A DNA stretch of 64,000 nucleotides from Kiloniella spongiae (lineage in GTDB: Bacteria; Pseudomonadota; Alphaproteobacteria; Kiloniellales; Kiloniellaceae). Shown piece after piece: positions 27,870-55,041 of this stretch (positions are counted from its first letter, which is position 1; every line of letters begins with the position of its first letter). The stretch lies in contig NZ_LAQL01000003.1 in the NCBI RefSeq assembly GCF_001026905.1, positions 434,001 to 498,000 on the forward strand, written 5' to 3'. The notes beneath the pieces are model-generated. The model saw only the letters and a list, made by a program, of their open reading frames with translations. It was not told the DNA's origin and did not search any database. Position numbers and translations under genes: made by a program.

Positions 27870-30422
27870 TCAGTCCTTTTTAGGTGCTTTTTTCCGTTTT
27901 AGTGTGGATGCACCTGCTTTATCGCTTGTTGGTTTTCCTGATTTACCCTTGAAGGGCTTTGCACTTGACTTTGGACCTTTGGCGTTATCGCGGAAAGGTT
28001 TTTTGCCAAATGGCTTTTTGTCACTCTTGCCACGTTTGGTGCTATCACCTTCGCTACGCTTGCTATCAGAGCTGTCGTCAAACCAAGGTTTTTTCCCGCT
28101 ATCATCCTGAGGGCCTTGGAACTTGCCATCGGTGCCAAATTTGCCTTTGAACTTGGTTTTAGCTTTGGGATTGTGATCTTTCTTTGCGTAATCCCGTTCA
28201 CCAGCCTTACGGTCACCAAATTTCTTTTTGCCGTAAGGTTTATCCCCAAATTTCTGGTCTTCGGGTTTTCTGTCGCCAGATTTATCATCACGATCTTTGA
28301 AATCGTTACCTTCGGCTGCACGGCGGCTGTATTCTTTACTGCGGTCGCTTCGGTTGAAATTATCCCGAAACGGCTTTTGTTTATGCTTTTTACTTTCGCC
28401 TCTTTTGCTTTCTCTGGGCTGGCGGTGGTATCCTGGGCCGTCTTTATCGTCGAGGGTATCTTCAGGCAGATCCGGAACGCCTTCCAGGCGTTTGACGGTA
28501 ATGGTTTTTTCAATCCGGTTGCTGCCACCAATGGTCTCAAAGAATTTTTCGGCACCTTTCGGTGTAAGTTCTACATGGGTTTCAGCCATGTGAATACGGA
28601 TGGCACCAATTTCCTTTTTGGTGATACAGCCCGCGCGACAAACCATAGGTAATAGCCATTTGGGATCGGCAGTGTGCTTGCGCCCGACAGTCATGGAAAT
28701 CCAGACGCCATCTTCGAAATCTACCCGTTCTTTACGAGATCCGGGGGCGTTGTTGCGTCTGCCACCGTTACCGTATTCGTAATCTTCATCACGATCACGT
28801 CCGCGATCTCTGTCACGATCTCTGCCGCCCCGATCTCTTTCTCGTGATGGCCTTTCCGGACGGTCAATTAATTCTTCAGGTGCAGGGCGTCCGGCACTTT
28901 GTGTTCGGATCAGGGCCGCCGCAATCTGTTCAGCACCATGTTTTTCAATAAGCTCTTTGATGAAAGCCTGTTCTTCTTCTTTAACAGGTTCGGTCAGGGT
29001 CGGATTGGCAAGGAAGCGTTCGCGATCCCGCTGCAAAATCTCTTCAACAGATGGTGGCTTGGCCCAAGTTGCTTGGACCTTGGCACTTTCCAACAGACGT
29101 TCTGTTCGCTTGCGCCAGTTAAAAGGTACAATAAGAGCAGAAACCCCCTTGCGTCCCGCACGACCCGTTCTGCCGGATCTGTGTAACAGCGGTTCACGGC
29201 TTTTGGGAATGTCGGCATGAACTACAAGTTCCAGATCGGGTAAGTCGATACCGCGCGCGGCAACATCTGTGGCAATACAGACTTGCGCCCGGCCATCACG
29301 CAGCGCCTGTATAGCATGGCTACGAAGGTTCTGGCTCAACTCGCCGGACAGGGCAACCACTGAAAAGCCGCGATTGGAAAAACGACTGGTCATGTGGTTT
29401 ACCGTTGCACGGGTCGCACAGAAAACAATCGCATTTTTCGGCTCATAATAACGAACCAGATTAATGATCGCATTTTCCTTGTCGTTAGGGGCAACGGTCA
29501 GGGCGCGATATTCGATATCGCTGTGCTGTTTTTCTTCGGCTTTGGTGCTGATGCGCACTGCATTTCGCTGATAACGCTTGGCGAGCATGGCGATAGAGCG
29601 TGGGACAGTGGCAGAGAACATCAGAGTACGACGTTCTTTCGGTGTGGTATCCAGCATGTATTCCAGATCATCCCGGAAACCAAGATCAAGCATTTCATCG
29701 GCTTCATCGAGAACCACAGCTCGCAGCGCACTGATGTTCAGGGAGCCGCGTTCAATATGGTCGCGAAGACGTCCGGGTGTGCCAACAACAATATGGGCAC
29801 CGCGTTCCAGCGCACGCCGTTCATTGCGCATATCCATACCGCCAACACAGGTTGCTGTTCGGGCACCTGTATCGCCATAGAGCCACTCAAGCTCGCGCAT
29901 TACCTGCAATGCAAGTTCGCGGGTCGGAGTAATGATAAGAGCAAAGGGGGCATCGGCGCGTTTGAAATGGTCTTGCCCTTCCAACAACGTTGGAGCCAGC
30001 GCAATACCGAAAGCAACAGTTTTACCGGAACCAGTTTGCGCAGAAACCAAGGCATCCGCATCCGCCAGCTCTGGATCTAGAACGGCTTTTTGAACAGGTG
30101 TTAGTTTGGCATAGCCTTTTTTTGCGAGCGCTTTTGCGAGTGGTGCTGCAACACCTTCAAAAGGATCTGCCTGTTCGGGGGCTTCGTCAGTAGTACCAGT
30201 GTCAGTATTTGTTTCTGTCTTTGAACTGGTTTCAGTCTCAGTGACATCACCGTTATTATCGGCATTCGTATCCGTATTCGGGGTTTCGGACTGCTGGTCC
30301 TGTGCTGTAACGTCAGGATCGTTTTCTTCGGAAATGGTTTCCGAGGAATTGGTTTCTACTGGATTATTTTCTTTTGGGGCTTCTTCTGGAGTGTCGTTGA
30401 CGGGCTTATCCGAGTTGGACAT
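27870..30422 (-). CDS. DEAD-box RNA helicase with DbpA-type RNA-binding domain and long basic tail
   Basis: 850 residues. An acidic, Glu/Thr/Asn-rich extension (1-88) precedes the helicase core: Q region, Walker A AQTGSGKT 128-135, GG, PTREL 166-170, TPGR 215-218, DEAD 239-242, SAT, and HRSGRTGRAGRKG. An RDRDRGRDRDED-type linker follows near 565, then a DbpA-like RNA-binding domain (about 600-680) and a 170-residue Lys/Gly/Phe-rich basic tail. The layout matches DeaD/CsdA-like proteins that remodel rRNA or mRNA in the cold, but both tails are unusually long. ATG is followed by a low-complexity run, so the start is not certain. Confidence 0.9.
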   Translation of the reverse strand: MSNSDKPVNDTPEEAPKENNPVETNSSETISEENDPDVTAQDQQSETPNTDTNADNNGDVTETETSSKTETNTDTGTTDEAPEQADPFEGVAAPLAKALAKKGYAKLTPVQKAVLDPELADADALVSAQTGSGKTVAFGIALAPTLLEGQDHFKRADAPFALIITPTRELALQVMRELEWLYGDTGARTATCVGGMDMRNERRALERGAHIVVGTPGRLRDHIERGSLNISALRAVVLDEADEMLDLGFRDDLEYMLDTTPKERRTLMFSATVPRSIAMLAKRYQRNAVRISTKAEEKQHSDIEYRALTVAPNDKENAIINLVRYYEPKNAIVFCATRATVNHMTSRFSNRGFSVVALSGELSQNLRSHAIQALRDGRAQVCIATDVAARGIDLPDLELVVHADIPKSREPLLHRSGRTGRAGRKGVSALIVPFNWRKRTERLLESAKVQATWAKPPSVEEILQRDRERFLANPTLTEPVKEEEQAFIKELIEKHGAEQIAAALIRTQSAGRPAPEELIDRPERPSRERDRGGRDRDRDRGRDRDEDYEYGNGGRRNNAPGSRKERVDFEDGVWISMTVGRKHTADPKWLLPMVCRAGCITKKEIGAIRIHMAETHVELTPKGAEKFFETIGGSNRIEKTITVKRLEGVPDLPEDTLDDKDGPGYHRQPRESKRGESKKHKQKPFRDNFNRSDRSKEYSRRAAEGNDFKDRDDKSGDRKPEDQKFGDKPYGKKKFGDRKAGERDYAKKDHNPKAKTKFKGKFGTDGKFQGPQDDSGKKPWFDDSSDSKRSEGDSTKRGKSDKKPFGKKPFRDNAKGPKSSAKPFKGKSGKPTSDKAGASTLKRKKAPKKD

Positions 30423-48819: not shown

Positions 48820-51800
48820 TTAACCCGATTGTCCGATCAAAATAACTCGTTCTGAAGCCGTTGATAAACCCTGAAGTAAAGTGCTTCTGAATGCAGTATC
48901 TAGCATTACTTGTGTATGGGAAACAGGGGCCTGCATCGGAAGTATCAGGATTGTTGCCGGGGATTGCTGATTTGGGTTTTTGCTGACAGGAAGCGCGTAG
49001 GCGAGGCTTATGACATCGAGTTCTCCAAACGCAAAGTCATGATTCTTGCCAGCGAATTCGATCGTTATCCGCCCCTCATCCAGATATCCCTTTTCGTCAC
49101 TGGTTTGAGGAATATCATCACGGGTGATATCCTTAATAAAACCAATATCACTTGTGGTTAGATCCTTTTCGCAATCACTTTCTTGCAAAATAACTTTATC
49201 GCCAACTTTATATCGAACACCAAACCTCTGTAAGTTGAGACTATGCTGTTGATCGTTCAGCAGATTTTGAAGCTGAAACGTCAGGTTTTGTGGCCCAATC
49301 ATTTGTTTGGCCATGCTTATGACCTGAATATCTTTTATGGGATTGTATTTAAAGCTCTTGGGTAAACGGTTCTTGATAACTTCGACCAGTTTCCGTTGTG
49401 TATCCTGCTCATTCTCGGCAGGAATAAAATAGAAACTGCCGGGGCTTTGCGTATCAGAGGTGTAGCTGATGTTTTCGCCAATGCTGAGTTTTAATGTGTT
49501 CTGAGCAAGTTTGTTATCTTGAAATTTTGTCGATAACTGATCAAGGACCAGTTCACTGTGATCAACTGTCTCAAGAAGTCTGGTTAGAGGTCTGCCAGTC
49601 CCGGAGAGCAAGCTATCTTGCCGAGTTGAAGTGATGGATAAGTGACTTTTTATCAAGAGCAGGGCTGTGGTCTCTGACAAGGAGTCAAGTACAGCCAGTA
49701 GAGTTGAATGATCCAAGAGATCTGCCTGATCGATAATCAGAAGCTGACAATCCAATGGTTTTCTTGTGTTACGTTTGTAGCTTCTATTCTTTGTATTGTA
49801 TTCAAGCAGCTTGGTTACTGAAACTGTGTCTGTATCCAGTGTAGAACTGGCTCCCTTTACCTGAGTAGAAGAAGGAACAGCAATTGTTGTTGATATATTT
49901 TTCGCTGTAACGATCTTGGCAAAGGCTTTGACAATGTCCTCTTTGCCTGTTCCGGGAACGCCTTCCATGACGGTGAGTTTGGTTTTCAACAACTTGGCAA
50001 CAGCGCTTTTTTGATATTCCGTTAGATCAATTTTATCGCGGTTGACGACCCAGTCTATTGCTTTTGTCGTATCAATTTCTCCCCAGGGCACAATGCCTTC
50101 GCACAATGTGCTTAAACGCTTTTTGATTTTTGTATTAGCTTGCCAGTCCTGTTTCAGGATCAAGAATTCTTGAGAGCTTCCTGTCGCATCTTTTTCTTTG
50201 TAGCTATGTATGTGTTTGGCTTCGATTTCTTTCGTCATCGCCAGCTCAAGAATATCGGTCGGGATTTCCAGACGTTTATTCAGCAGTGCCAGAAGATTGT
50301 TTTTTTCCCGAATATCATCAGCCTGAGAAAGCGCGTAATACAACGCGGCACCAGCCCGCTCCAGACAATGCGCTTCCCGTCCAAGTTTGTGGGCTATGCT
50401 ATCAGGAACATCAAAGGGAATAGATTTTGTATTCCGGACGATACAATAGGGATTGTCTTTGAGTTTCGATATTGTGTCTTTTCCGAAAATGTCGAAAAGA
50501 CGGTAGGACCGGGCAGGATCAACACTGTGATTGTGCAGGAAAGTAGCAATTTCAGAGAGGATCTTTCTTTCTTCGGACCATTCTTCCAGAAGCTTAACCT
50601 TCCCCTTTGGCAGGGATGTTTCTGTTGCAAGCTTTTCGGGTGTTTCCAAAATCACCTTTAGCGCATCGGGGCCAAAGCTTTCAACCAGTTGCTTTGCGGC
50701 CTTTGCTCCTAGCCCTTTGATCATGCCGTCAGAGAGTTGCTTTTCAAGGTTTTCGAGAATTTTCTCTGGACTTGGTCCTTTCCCGCCGAGGTGCTCGTCC
50801 AGAAATTCACGACAGACGTTAAAATCGGACGTATAGTCCTTGGGAAGCTTTAATCCCTTGTTTTGGGCAACGGACTTTGCCGTTTCTTTCATCTTGTCCG
50901 TTGGCTTGCCTTTACCCGCATTTTTCGGCATTGCCACGCCTGTATTGATTTTAGGTGCAGTGGCTGCATTGGTCTTGAGAATACCGATAAGGCGTTCTGT
51001 GTCATTGCCGATATCGTCCCAAACCTGTCGAGCGGTCTGTTTCCCCTCGAGTACATCATCCAGATTCATTTCCCACATGGCAGTGACGCCGGGATCAACC
51101 AGTTCAGGGGCTGCGGTTTTCAGTGTCTTATAAAGGGTAAGGCCTGCGTCTGTTGGGATAATGTGTTTTCCGCTCTGGGCCAGAAAGTTTTGCAGTTTTA
51201 GCCCTGTGATCACGGCGGCGCGTGTCGCTGGTGTTCCGATGCCTTTGGCTTCTTTCAGACGCTCCTTTAAATCCTTGTTTTCGACAAACCGCCAGGCATT
51301 CTGCATGGCATCAATCAAAGTCCCTTCGTTGTAACGTGGCGGTGCTTTGGTTTTCTTGGTATCTGTTGTGACAGGAGAGAGAACAGCCATGTCTCCGTCC
51401 TGAATGGGCGGAAGTTCACCTGCGTGATCTTCCTTTTTTTCCATGACATCAGTATAGACAGCTTTCCACCCCTGTTCTTTGGGGATGTTACCCGTCACTT
51501 TGAAATCCAGAAGGGTTTCTTTATCTTTCCCAGCCTCTTCATCACGAAGGGTTACAGGAACTTCCATTGAAACGCTGGTTGATTCATAGACGTAATCTGG
51601 CATCAGGATCGCGAGATAGGAGCTGGCAACGAGATCGAACATACGCTGTTCGTCCTGGGTCAGGCGTGCATAGATGACTTCTACACGGTCCATCGTGTTT
51701 TTGTTGGGAACAATCGCGTGGTGAGATACGCCCTTCAAACCTGCATCAGAAAAGTGGCCGGATTTTCCCTTGCGAACTTCTGGGGATGACAGATCGATCC

Positions 51801-52830
51801 CCTGGTATTGTGGAAGCTTGGTCAGTCCCTGAATAATTTCACGGATGTCGTCTATCTGGTTTTCTGCCAGATACCGGGATTCAGCACGGGGATAGGTCTG
51901 AATTTTCTTACCTTCCCCGTCGTATAGTTCCTGAGCAATGTTTAGTGTTTTGTCGGCGCTCCACCCCCAACGGCGGGCACATATTTTTTGCAATTCAGGC
52001 AAATCAAGAAGACGCGGCGGTTTCGTTTTCTTGATTTTCTTTTCTGTTTTGAGCGGACCTTCATAGCCTTCAACAGCTATGCGGAGTTGTTCTGCCTTTT
52101 CCGGGGTCAGAATACGGTCCTTGGGGGCATGACGAAGGTCCAGTTCGCCACTTTCGGCCTTTGCCGTTGCGACAAGGTGGTAATAATCCTGAGGGGTGAA
52201 ATCAAGGATTTCTAACTCGCGCATGCAGACAATTGCCATGGTCGGTGTCTTAACACGGCCGATACCAATTGCGCCGTATTGTCCGGGCTGTTTGAGGGCA
52301 ACAGTGGCTGCGCGGGTCAGGGATAGATTATAAACCTGATCCGCTTGCTGGCGGACAACAGCGGCTTGACCCAGATTATGGTATTTGTCATTGGGTTCCA
52401 GGTTGTCGAAAGCTTGCCTCAGGGTTTTTTCATCTTGCGCGGTGAACATGGCGCGCTGAACCTGTCCGGCGAATTTATAGTGTCGTAAAATCTCTTCGCC
52501 AATAAGCTGGCCTTCGCGGTCACAGTCGGTTGCGATGATGACACGCTTGGCGGTTTTTAGCGCCTTGGCAATGGCTTCGAGTTTGTTTTTTGCGGATGGT
52601 GACGCATCTGGTGCTGGGCAAGTTGGATAAAAATCATCGGGCTTGAGTAAATCAAATGACCAGCGCCCCCAGCTGCTTTGAATCTGTTGCGGTTCCTGCA
52701 AGCTTAACAGGTGCCCTTCTGCGGGAAGGATTTGCCCGTATTTACTGCCGATTGCCGCTTGAACATCGCGCTTTTGCGAAGTTTTTTCCGTAATAATAAT
52801 GGTGGACAATCTGAAACCCTTTACCGTCAC
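48820..52830 (-). CDS. Topoisomerase III fused to a degenerate RecD2-like helicase
   Basis: 1336 residues. Residues 8-625 are a type IA topoisomerase: TOPRIM E15 (ITEKTS) and DxDxE D102/D104/E106 (ATDCDREG), gate region, and active tyrosine Y313 (QTYPRAES). TopB zinc fingers are absent. Residues 660-1336 follow RecD2: helix-hairpin-helix 700-750, Q-motif LTEYQ 936-940, Walker A-like GVPGTGKE 957-964 (Thr/Ser after Lys replaced by Glu), Walker B-like LIIDQA 1031-1036 (DE became DQ), altered motifs III/IV, and an SH3-like insert about 1205-1270. The usual TVHKSQG motif is replaced by PVSKNPNQ at 1281-1288. Start is GTG 52830 or, better spaced after AAAGGG, TTG 52809. Inferred: active topoisomerase, ATP-dead binding module. 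Confidence 0.85.
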   Translation of the reverse strand: MTVKGFRLSTIIITEKTSQKRDVQAAIGSKYGQILPAEGHLLSLQEPQQIQSSWGRWSFDLLKPDDFYPTCPAPDASPSAKNKLEAIAKALKTAKRVIIATDCDREGQLIGEEILRHYKFAGQVQRAMFTAQDEKTLRQAFDNLEPNDKYHNLGQAAVVRQQADQVYNLSLTRAATVALKQPGQYGAIGIGRVKTPTMAIVCMRELEILDFTPQDYYHLVATAKAESGELDLRHAPKDRILTPEKAEQLRIAVEGYEGPLKTEKKIKKTKPPRLLDLPELQKICARRWGWSADKTLNIAQELYDGEGKKIQTYPRAESRYLAENQIDDIREIIQGLTKLPQYQGIDLSSPEVRKGKSGHFSDAGLKGVSHHAIVPNKNTMDRVEVIYARLTQDEQRMFDLVASSYLAILMPDYVYESTSVSMEVPVTLRDEEAGKDKETLLDFKVTGNIPKEQGWKAVYTDVMEKKEDHAGELPPIQDGDMAVLSPVTTDTKKTKAPPRYNEGTLIDAMQNAWRFVENKDLKERLKEAKGIGTPATRAAVITGLKLQNFLAQSGKHIIPTDAGLTLYKTLKTAAPELVDPGVTAMWEMNLDDVLEGKQTARQVWDDIGNDTERLIGILKTNAATAPKINTGVAMPKNAGKGKPTDKMKETAKSVAQNKGLKLPKDYTSDFNVCREFLDEHLGGKGPSPEKILENLEKQLSDGMIKGLGAKAAKQLVESFGPDALKVILETPEKLATETSLPKGKVKLLEEWSEERKILSEIATFLHNHSVDPARSYRLFDIFGKDTISKLKDNPYCIVRNTKSIPFDVPDSIAHKLGREAHCLERAGAALYYALSQADDIREKNNLLALLNKRLEIPTDILELAMTKEIEAKHIHSYKEKDATGSSQEFLILKQDWQANTKIKKRLSTLCEGIVPWGEIDTTKAIDWVVNRDKIDLTEYQKSAVAKLLKTKLTVMEGVPGTGKEDIVKAFAKIVTAKNISTTIAVPSSTQVKGASSTLDTDTVSVTKLLEYNTKNRSYKRNTRKPLDCQLLIIDQADLLDHSTLLAVLDSLSETTALLLIKSHLSITSTRQDSLLSGTGRPLTRLLETVDHSELVLDQLSTKFQDNKLAQNTLKLSIGENISYTSDTQSPGSFYFIPAENEQDTQRKLVEVIKNRLPKSFKYNPIKDIQVISMAKQMIGPQNLTFQLQNLLNDQQHSLNLQRFGVRYKVGDKVILQESDCEKDLTTSDIGFIKDITRDDIPQTSDEKGYLDEGRITIEFAGKNHDFAFGELDVISLAYALPVSKNPNQQSPATILILPMQAPVSHTQVMLDTAFRSTLLQGLSTASERVILIGQSG

Positions 52831-53070
52831 TCAACTCTAGTATGCTTTTACCGTAAAGAGGGGTTCGGGATAAAGCCTCTCTTTTGAAAAAGTTTGTTTG
52901 TTGAGGGTTGGATTGGGATTTTCTTGTAAATGGATTTCGTTGGTCGGTTTTAGATGAATTGTTCGGCTTACCTGTCGGGTATAAAATAGGGGTGGGAAAG
53001 TGGGTGTGATTCCCGTTTTAGGGGCGCATGTGCCCTATCCCATTCTGTTTTACATCTGGTGGGAGGAAAA

Positions 53071-53520
53071 ATGAGTGATCCGGATCTAAAGCAGCAGCTT
53101 ACCGAACGGCAAAAAAGGTTTGTTGAAGAATATCTGGTTGATTTGAATGCGACGCAAGCCGCCCTTCGGGCAGGGTATAGTCCTAAATCAGTTAAGCAGA
53201 GTGCCAGCCGAACACTGAAAAATCCCTTGGTGCAAGATGCCATTGAACAGGCAAAAACTGCGCGATCCCAACGATTACAGGTCGATGCTGATTATGTCCT
53301 GAAGGGGGCTGTGGAGTTATTTGAACGCTGTATGCAGCGCAACCCGGTTGCGGATGCTGATGGTGAATACAAGTTCCAGCACACGGGGGCGGGAAAAGCG
53401 TTGGAGATTATCGGGCGACATGTGTCGGTTCAGGCCTTTAAGGAAAAGGTTGAAATGTCGATTGAAAATGAACTGGTTGATCGCCTGATGCGGGGGCGTA
53501 AGCGACTGAATAATAAGTAG
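53071..53520 (+). CDS. Phage terminase small subunit
   Basis: 149 residues from ATG 53071 with GGGAGG just upstream. It has the Terminase_2 opening LTERQKRFVEEYLVDLNATQAALRAGYSPKSVKQSAS, a helix-turn-helix for binding the packaging site, then a helical oligomerisation part. The large subunit gene follows 57 bases on. It is the first gene of a phage-like block and lies beside the divergent topoisomerase gene. Confidence 0.9.
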   Translation: MSDPDLKQQLTERQKRFVEEYLVDLNATQAALRAGYSPKSVKQSASRTLKNPLVQDAIEQAKTARSQRLQVDADYVLKGAVELFERCMQRNPVADADGEYKFQHTGAGKALEIIGRHVSVQAFKEKVEMSIENELVDRLMRGRKRLNNK

Positions 53521-53577
53521 ATTAAATAAGTCAGTGTTATTTTTACTATTTTTTCCATCTGATTATAGAGGTATCTG

Positions 53578-55041
53578 ATGACCCACGGGGTTGATCTGGA
53601 TCTTGCCGAGGATTGTGCGCAGTTCTATGCCGATCCGCTGGGGTTTGTGCTGTGGGCCTTTGACTGGGGACAGGGCGAATTGGTCGATTTTAAAGGCCCG
53701 CGCGACTGGCAGTTGGCCTATCTGGAAGATCTGGGCGTGCAAATCAAAGAACGCGGGTTTGACGGCCTTCACCCTGTTGCCCCCATGGATATGGCAACGG
53801 CATCTGGCCATGGTATTGGGAAATCAGCGATGTCGGCCTGGCTTATTCTCTTTATTATGTCGACACGCCCTTTTGCCAAGGGGGTTGTGACATCCAATAC
53901 AAGTGATCAACTGCGCACCAAGACTTGGGCCGAATTGGGGAAATGGCATAAGCGCTGTTTAACGGGGCATTGGTTCAACTATAGCGCCAGTAAGGGGAAC
54001 ATGGCGCTGGTGCATAAACGTCACCCTGAAAGTTGGCGGTGCGATGCACAAACCTGTCGTGAGGAAAACTCTGAAAGCTTTGCCGGATTGCACGCCGCGA
54101 ATTCGACGCCCTTTTATCTCTTCGATGAGGCATCAGCCGTGCCTGATAAAATCTGGGAGGTTTCAGACGGAGGCCTGACCGACGGTGAACCCATGCGCTT
54201 TGTCTTTGGCAATCCTACACGAAACTCCGGACGCTTTTTTGAGTGTTTCAATCGGTTGCGCCATCGCTGGAAAACCAGACAGATTGACAGCCGGACGGTG
54301 ACCGGAACCAACCAGAACCTGATGCAGCAATGGGTTGAGGACTATGGTGAGGATAGTGACTTTGTTCGCGTGCGTGTCCGGGGTGTATTCCCAAGAGCAG
54401 GCTCAACCCAGTTTATCAGCAATCTTATTGTCGAAGAGGCTCTAAATCGCCAACTTTCGGCTCAACCACAAGATGCTATCGTCATTGGTGTTGATGTTGC
54501 CCGTTTCGGTGATGATCAATCGGTAATTTTGGTGCGTCAGGGACGTAAGGTGCTGGAAATCAAAAAGTACCGCGTGGATACGATGACACTGGTCGGACAT
54601 GTGGTTGAAGTCATACGCCAATATCGTCCTGATGGTGTGTTGGTGGACGGCGTGGGCGTTGGTGGCGGCGTTGTCGATCGTATGAAGCAATTGGGTCATG
54701 ACTGTATTGATGTGAACGCCGGAGCCAGAGCGCAGGACCAGAAGACCTACATGAACAAACGCGCTGAAATGTGGGGCGAGATGCGCGATTGGCTCAAGGG
54801 TGGTGATATCCCCACTGATGATCGGGAGCTTGAAACCGACCTCACAGCTATTGAGTACGGCTTTGATGCCAAGAACAGGCTGCAGCTTGAGCGTAAGGAA
54901 GACATGAAGAAGAGGGGATTGCACTCACCAGATGTAGCAGATGCATTGGCGCTGACCTTTGCCGAGGATATCGTGAAGTGGTCAGAGGATGACTACGGCG
55001 ATATGGAGGTTGCTATCTCGGATTATGAGCCGGGGGGGTAG
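53578..55041 (+). CDS. Phage terminase large subunit
   Basis: 487 residues. ATPase domain with Walker A SGHGIGKS 76-83 and Walker B FDE 182-184; the RNase H-like nuclease domain starts IGVDVARFGDDQS (D306), with acidic residues VDGVGVGGGVVDR and DVADALALTF following. Length and motifs look complete, so the packaging motor is intact, although no portal, capsid or tail gene follows. Its last 19 bases overlap a convergent minus-strand gene. Confidence 0.9.
   Translation: MTHGVDLDLAEDCAQFYADPLGFVLWAFDWGQGELVDFKGPRDWQLAYLEDLGVQIKERGFDGLHPVAPMDMATASGHGIGKSAMSAWLILFIMSTRPFAKGVVTSNTSDQLRTKTWAELGKWHKRCLTGHWFNYSASKGNMALVHKRHPESWRCDAQTCREENSESFAGLHAANSTPFYLFDEASAVPDKIWEVSDGGLTDGEPMRFVFGNPTRNSGRFFECFNRLRHRWKTRQIDSRTVTGTNQNLMQQWVEDYGEDSDFVRVRVRGVFPRAGSTQFISNLIVEEALNRQLSAQPQDAIVIGVDVARFGDDQSVILVRQGRKVLEIKKYRVDTMTLVGHVVEVIRQYRPDGVLVDGVGVGGGVVDRMKQLGHDCIDVNAGARAQDQKTYMNKRAEMWGEMRDWLKGGDIPTDDRELETDLTAIEYGFDAKNRLQLERKEDMKKRGLHSPDVADALALTFAEDIVKWSEDDYGDMEVAISDYEPGG

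Follow-up and report, generated by a model that had tools for sequence, protein, structure and literature searches.

A topoisomerase III fused to a RecD2-like helicase half that has lost its motor residues in Kiloniella and related genera

Partnerships between helicases and topoisomerases are usually understood as a motor plus a gate, and the locus described here raises the question of what role a helicase without its motor could play when it shares a chain with a topoisomerase. The gene lies in a 64,000-nucleotide stretch of the Kiloniella spongiae genome (assembly GCF_001026905.1, contig NZ_LAQL01000003.1, positions 434,001 to 498,000; hereafter the window, whose own numbering is used for its features). 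An initial annotation, made from the sequence alone, had read it as a topoisomerase III (TopIII) fused to a RecD2-shaped helicase with degenerate motifs, captured by fusion and retained under selection as a DNA-binding or allosteric module. The open reading frame (ORF) of this TopIII/pseudo-RecD2 fusion was confirmed at 48820-52830 on the minus strand (1336 amino acids, GTG start) by Pfam, NCBIfam and alignment. Pfam placed Toprim at residues 10-119 and Topoisom_bac at 149-603 (E 2.4e-87), followed by HHH_RecD2 (758-837), AAA_30 (936-1059) and SH3_13 (1186-1239, under the SH3_13 cut-off). The NCBIfam topB match (E 8.3e-120) reached 401.4 bits against a curated cut-off of 515.75 for TIGR01056 and 427 against 597 for NF005829, and the helicase_RecD2 match (TIGR01448, E 8.4e-84 across residues 692-1334) reached 282 bits against 500; because both models score under their cut-offs, the protein is best regarded as a divergent relative of the TopIII and RecD2 families. 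The reverse gyrase model rgy gave 74.2 bits against a cut-off of 471.7, with its best stretch within the topoisomerase part.

The motor was compared between 13 distinct fused sequences (eight from the Kiloniella genus group, four from the Sneathiella genus group and one from Aestuariispira) and 27 rows of free RecD2. The free set is non-random: it comprises the complete best-scoring free loci from 385 genomes of the class, two from the order of genome G266, the copy from a G136 operon discussed below and one gene from a Geobacillus plasmid; its 27 rows represent 26 genes, because L045 is the same gene as the copy from G136, and three partial free RecD2 loci (L062-L064) were excluded. In the window protein, alignment bore out the degenerate motifs of the initial annotation, all on the minus strand: GVPGTGKE, with GKE, at former motif I (Walker A; residues 953-966, 49933-49974), DQ at former motif II (Walker B; 1032-1041, 49708-49737), and loss of the GDxxQ of motif III (1059-1068, 49627-49656) and of HKSQG (1279-1290, 48961-48996). 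Former motif VI (1316-1330, 48841-48885) is lost as well. Fused copies keep between zero and four of eight motor residues, whereas all eight are present in every one of the 27 free rows. The Walker B Glu and the motif IV Arg occur in none of the 13, the motif VI Arg in one, and the Walker A Thr in two (Ser replaces it in two more, both lacking the Lys), compared with 27/27 free rows in every case. The Walker A Lys is kept in all eight Kiloniella-group proteins and replaced in the other five (by G, R, C, L and S). KEL199 comes nearest to an intact Walker A (GLHETGKT) and T64 comes nearest on motif III; neither is intact. The residues standing in for motor residues vary between fused copies, as would be expected once the function had gone. 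Across the seven motif segments, fused proteins show a mean pairwise identity of 0.20-0.44, versus 0.64-0.89 among free RecD2. Not one of the 13 has the combination of intact Walker A and B, GDxxQ, HKSQG and motif VI Arg by which RecD2 is recognised, so that the proposed loss of the ATPase motifs extends to all the fused sequences compared. Judged by sequence, the motor is dead in every fused copy compared, and neither ATP hydrolysis nor translocation would be expected.

The rest of the helicase half tells a different story. A profile comparison of fused with free RecD2 aligned 614 columns with a probability of 100, from the HhH region through motif VI. Of RecD2, nothing is absent except its N-terminal domain and its extreme C-terminal tail, and against the PDB the helicase-half profile matched RecD2 (3e1s/3gp8) at E 2.1e-38. 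Mean pairwise identities in the fused and free sets, respectively, are 0.59 and 0.53 at the start of the HhH region, 0.44 and 0.46 in the rest of HHH, 0.56 and 0.49 in the hairpin ahead of motif II, 0.59 and 0.54 in the NRLPK-DIQ stretch, and 0.48 and 0.50 in the 2A/2B region (SH3; residues 1173-1280, 48991-49314, minus strand). The two sets differ in breadth, and the contrast to be trusted is therefore that between motif and non-motif segments inside each set. The free consensus is retained at 0.29 of motif columns (n = 52), 0.52 of the other columns of residues 861-1330 (n = 32) and 0.75 of HHH columns (n = 21; Mann-Whitney P = 0.008 for motif versus other and 7e-6 for motif versus HHH), the RecD2 HhH/HHH region (residues 696-860, 50251-50745, minus strand) being the best-kept part. 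Across the 13 fused sequences 41 helicase-half residues are invariant. Loss in the helicase half is thus selective by these measures, with the motor motifs scrambled and the frame largely kept. The hairpin ahead of motif II (residues 1009-1031, 49738-49806, minus strand) carries RK or KK at positions 1023-1024 in 13/13 fused proteins; among free rows none of 27 has two basic residues there and five have one. From its alignment with 3e1s, its place ahead of motif II and the RecD2 structure, we take this hairpin to be the likely 1B strand-separation pin. An analogy is offered by human PIF1, in which domain 1B (residues 280-300) precedes the Walker B Glu 307 (PMC6451128), and PMC8469786 places the RecD2 pin in domain 1B.

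The topoisomerase half keeps its catalytic residues. E15, D102, D104, E106 and Y313, which the initial annotation had listed as retained, show no variation among 11 aligned fused proteins (the alignment preceded the discovery of the G223 and G455 sequences). In E. coli topoisomerase III, position 328 is the one aligned with Y313 (codon 51892-51894, minus strand). The type IA core (Toprim plus Topoisom_bac) occupies residues 1-640 (50911-52830, minus strand) and is followed by a conserved segment ending in FLDEHLGG (residues 641-683, 50782-50910, minus strand). We assign this segment to the topoisomerase because the match of unfused TopIII relatives extends to residue 677-680 in 13/17 rows and the RecD2 match starts only near residue 692. 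Among unfused rows reaching residue 664 or beyond, 2-164 amino acids follow the match in 14/17, without a helicase body. Only about 12 residues thus separate the topoisomerase segment from the first RecD2 column, and the hhalign match of the helicase half begins at residue 107 of free RecD2; the RecD2 N-terminal domain is therefore missing. In agreement, four of five free-RecD2-conserved columns before residue 696 are gaps in all 13 fused rows; that alignment had been pre-cut at residue 683, which makes the length accounting the stronger argument. The proposal that the helicase half keeps the RecD2 architecture accordingly holds for the order HHH, RecA1, RecA2/SH3 (SH3_13 itself scoring under its cut-off) and fails for the N-terminal domain. 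The nearest unfused TopIII relatives among the matches listed share about 50-54% identity with the fusion across most of residues 1-680, and in the tree the topoisomerase half groups with divergent TopIII rows, many of them from plasmids. Elsewhere in the window genome the whole protein matches just one gene, of type IA, with 29% identity and a frame of 900 amino acids; it is taken to be TopA. One unfused TopIII of the same branch (L101, genome G401) has an open frame of just 530 amino acids and is apparently a broken copy.

A search for the same fusion among relatives yielded the family of 13. In the Kiloniella genus group it is present in eight of nine genomes (the ninth is 77% complete), compared with 4/24 genomes of the Sneathiella genus group and 1/43 of the order of Aestuariispira. 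Frames of more than 1,200 amino acids were found in 4/385 class genomes (G000, G004, G223 and G266) and, among 398 phylum genomes, in the window genome only, where the fusion is the sole RecD2-like match at E 1e-10. The whole ORF is kept in all 12 fused sequences that do not run off a contig end, across three genus groups; the thirteenth (G455) has lost its start at a contig end and was left out of the topoisomerase tree. A 3.3 kb contig (L031) matching residues 3-223 was not counted, because it could be either fused or unfused. With 100/100 support, the fused rows formed one clade in each tree: 13 of 40 rows for the helicase half (bootstrap not fully settled) and 12 of 29 rows for the topoisomerase half. 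Both trees are midpoint-rooted, with long branches for G223, Aestuariispira and T64. Because the fused rows form one clade in the tree of each half, a single fusion event is the simplest reading, and the proposed capture of a helicase by fusion is upheld by these trees and the 13 fused homologues. We found no description of the fusion in the open-licence PubMed Central literature searched.

No fused copy with a live motor was found in overlapping sets of 385 genomes of the class, 61 of the window's own order, 25 of the G223 order, 43 of the G266 order and 398 of the phylum. None was found in genome contigs searched with short exact patterns from the window protein, which reach close relatives only; on plasmids, among the matches listed (5000 records); or in phages, where no record was covered to 80%. 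Fused homologues with intact motifs, which would have marked the window copy as simply decaying, were thus sought in genomes, contigs, plasmids and phages and did not appear. Separate genes did. Genome G136 encodes a TopIII (778 amino acids, 51% identical to the N-terminal half), then a 120-amino-acid ORF (L096 10395-10757) with no Pfam match that overlaps the RecD2 start by four bases, then a RecD2 of 729 amino acids with intact motifs (28% identity over 689 columns); an ORF adjoining this run looks, by eye, like a tyrosine recombinase. One stretch of a Geobacillus plasmid holds an annotated RecD-like helicase, lepB, a type IA topoisomerase and a type IV secretion system DNA-transfer gene, and, among the matches listed, two Paenibacillus records and one Brevibacillus plasmid have the same gene names under one match. 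At least three plasmid records among those listed are covered to at least 80%, all by separate neighbouring genes according to their annotation. Adjacent TopIII and RecD2 genes suggest a possible precursor arrangement, and they are not established as direct ancestors: in the helicase tree the fused rows stand apart from every free row, and none of the free rows emerges as nearest.

Selection was gauged from omega (the ratio of nonsynonymous to synonymous substitution rates, dN/dS) in seven pairs, one of which, with a more distant metagenome-assembled genome, was saturated and not computable. In five close Kiloniella pairs omega was 0.019-0.025 for the topoisomerase half and 0.088-0.148 for the helicase half. 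Neighbouring genes gave 0.022-0.056 for the terL-like gene (5/6 pairs), 0.052-0.068 for a histidine kinase (4/6) and 0.065-0.088 for a binding protein (5/6). On these estimates both halves are under purifying selection in close pairs, the helicase half clearly constrained and less tightly so, in line with the retention under selection that had been proposed.

Overall, the explanation that we favour, and consider reasonably probable, is that a TopIII with its catalytic residues in place has been joined to an ATP-dead superfamily 1B (SF1B) fold reused as a passive DNA-holding module. A single fusion, perhaps from neighbouring TopIII and RecD2 genes, would have removed the RecD2 N-terminal domain, and motor loss would date to the common ancestor or to a time shortly after it. 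A junction between single-stranded and double-stranded DNA may be engaged by the HhH domain together with the basic hairpin while the 2A/2B groove holds the strand, and exposed single-stranded DNA (ssDNA) placed at the TopIII gate could then govern substrate choice (forks, hemicatenanes, recombination joints). We infer in this way an SF1B fold, DNA binding and a benefit to strand passage. A sharper proposal, which we offer tentatively as a plausible possibility, is that the dead SF1B body gives this single-chain TopIII a built-in wedge for strand separation that needs no ATP, holding a junction open and feeding a strand to the gate, so that it would play, passively and in cis, part of the role that a RecQ-family helicase has for eukaryotic TopIII. 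Several observations weigh against a DNA-holding role. The helicase half shows no clear rise in net charge, and its 2A/2B region is slightly more negative than that of free RecD2, so that a general affinity for DNA is not apparent. The fused proteins have also lost HKSQG and motif Ia, both of which contact ssDNA in SF1B helicases. In the K. laminariae pair omega rises to 0.067 for the topoisomerase half and 0.280 for the helicase half; in the four close pairs in which all were computable, helicase-half omega exceeds the values for the histidine kinase and the binding protein by a factor of 1.3-2.2; and all these values are rough, because dS is near saturation at about 1. The gene is patchy in the Sneathiella group and the order of Aestuariispira, so those lineages manage without it, and the very long G223 branch implies weaker constraint there.

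The loss of several motifs thought to touch ssDNA could also mean that, instead of binding DNA, the helicase half serves as a platform for protein docking or allostery, with SSB, RecQ or the replisome as partners. HhH domains, whose columns are the best kept, can mediate protein contacts too, and RecQ is encoded in 7/7 genomes examined, so the fusion is not a stand-in for a missing RecQ. A review (PMC7140829) associates E. coli TopIII with the fork, likely via SSB and DnaX, and describes the RecQ-TopIII link as poorly supported in E. coli and established in eukaryotes. Pure docking, however, would not need a hairpin and 2A/2B region kept at about free-RecD2 levels, nor a uniformly basic hairpin, and no neighbour is common to all fused loci compared; we regard this alternative as rather unlikely.

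If the helicase half were instead a decaying passenger, its motor lost and the remainder on its way out, one might expect what is seen of its pace (omega about 0.1 against 0.02 for the topoisomerase half, and somewhat above two neighbouring genes), its differing ATPase-site substitutions and the insertions in K. laminariae. These insertions, in L025 and L030, measure 32 amino acids after residue 1115 and 59-79 after residue 1244 of the window protein. Plain decay is nonetheless improbable, because the ORF is whole in the 12/12 sequences, from three genus groups, that do not reach a contig end, and omega is well below 1; the 41 invariant residues also speak against it. Least probable of all is an ATP-binding or sensing regulator in which nucleotide binding without hydrolysis switches the topoisomerase. 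The GK of Walker A does survive in the eight Kiloniella-group proteins, and the isolated helicase domain of reverse gyrase switches conformation with ATP and DNA (PMC10233626). Against this, the Walker A Lys is lost in the five others, the motif IV Arg in 13/13 and the motif VI Arg in 12/13, which makes a family-wide ATP-dependent role unlikely and leaves room for one confined to Kiloniella.

The genomic surroundings differ between groups. In the window a pair of genes resembling small and large terminase subunits lies at 53059-55041 on the plus strand, and such a pair adjoins the fusion or lies within about 3.5 kb of it in 8/8 Kiloniella-group loci; it was seen beside the fusion in this group only. 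Its large subunit is strongly constrained (omega 0.02-0.06), no phage structural family matched among eight other neighbouring proteins scanned, and Phage_portal (PF04860), the one portal family searched, had no match in 4/4 Kiloniella-group genomes; the pair may be a domesticated packaging pair. A gene for a DEAD-box/DbpA-domain helicase adjoins the fusion or lies less than 1 kb away in Sneathiella-group G223 and in Aestuariispira (L103 13694-15958; L106 14639-16819), and lies about 18 kb from it in the window (27870-30422). We considered the fusion as a prophage gene and rejected this, given the restriction of the terminase-like pair to the Kiloniella group and the lack of PF04860 in the four genomes; we likewise rejected a mobile-element gene, given the pair near all eight Kiloniella loci and the DEAD-box gene nearby in G223 and Aestuariispira. 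Unfused TopIII relatives are often plasmid-borne. A scan of viral contigs returned two with the Kiloniella fusion, one encoding the same protein as K. litopenaei (L111) and one near K. majae with equally dead motifs (L112, not among the 13). Both end exactly at the fusion stop codon; the terminase-like pair may have caused them to be called as proviruses.

Among known systems, RecD2 itself (TIGR01448, PDB 3e1s/3gp8) has the same order of HHH, 1A, 2A and SH3-like 2B; the fused proteins differ in lacking its N-terminal domain and extreme C-terminal tail, in having a degenerate motor in 13/13 and in being joined to a topoisomerase. The TopB branch on alphaproteobacterial plasmids shares the C-terminal segment 641-683 and, unlike the fusion, has no helicase body. 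Reverse gyrase also places a helicase module and a type IA topoisomerase on one chain (PMC10233626); its module is an ATP-driven SF2 helicase, N-terminal and with a latch, whereas that of the fusion is predicted to be SF1B and ATP-dead and is C-terminal. With the motor erased and the rest of the helicase, including a likely pin, kept about as in free RecD2, the holding function of a helicase may here have been separated from its pulling function, and the family, as a natural experiment, could show whether a passive SF1B fold suffices to guide TopIII to its substrate. In organisation, the nearest precedent is TraI of F-family plasmids, in which a transesterase is followed by a vestigial RecD2-like helicase that has lost activity and kept ssDNA binding (PMC3912908, PMC6362355). 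TraI is a relaxase and has a second, active helicase, whereas the fusion is a topoisomerase; a PDB search with the helicase-half profile matched no TraI chain at E 0.001, and the resemblance is one of organisation only. AddB and RecC provide a further parallel, their inactivated SF1 domains being thought to scan ssDNA (PMC4824097): in each case a helicase fold without motor motifs is reused to read or hold ssDNA, a role that in the fusion would be a presumptive one, although theirs is a UvrD-like SF1 fold within helicase-nuclease complexes. Beside TraI and RecC/AddB, the fusion would thus be another instance in which a dead SF1 helicase has been put to new use.

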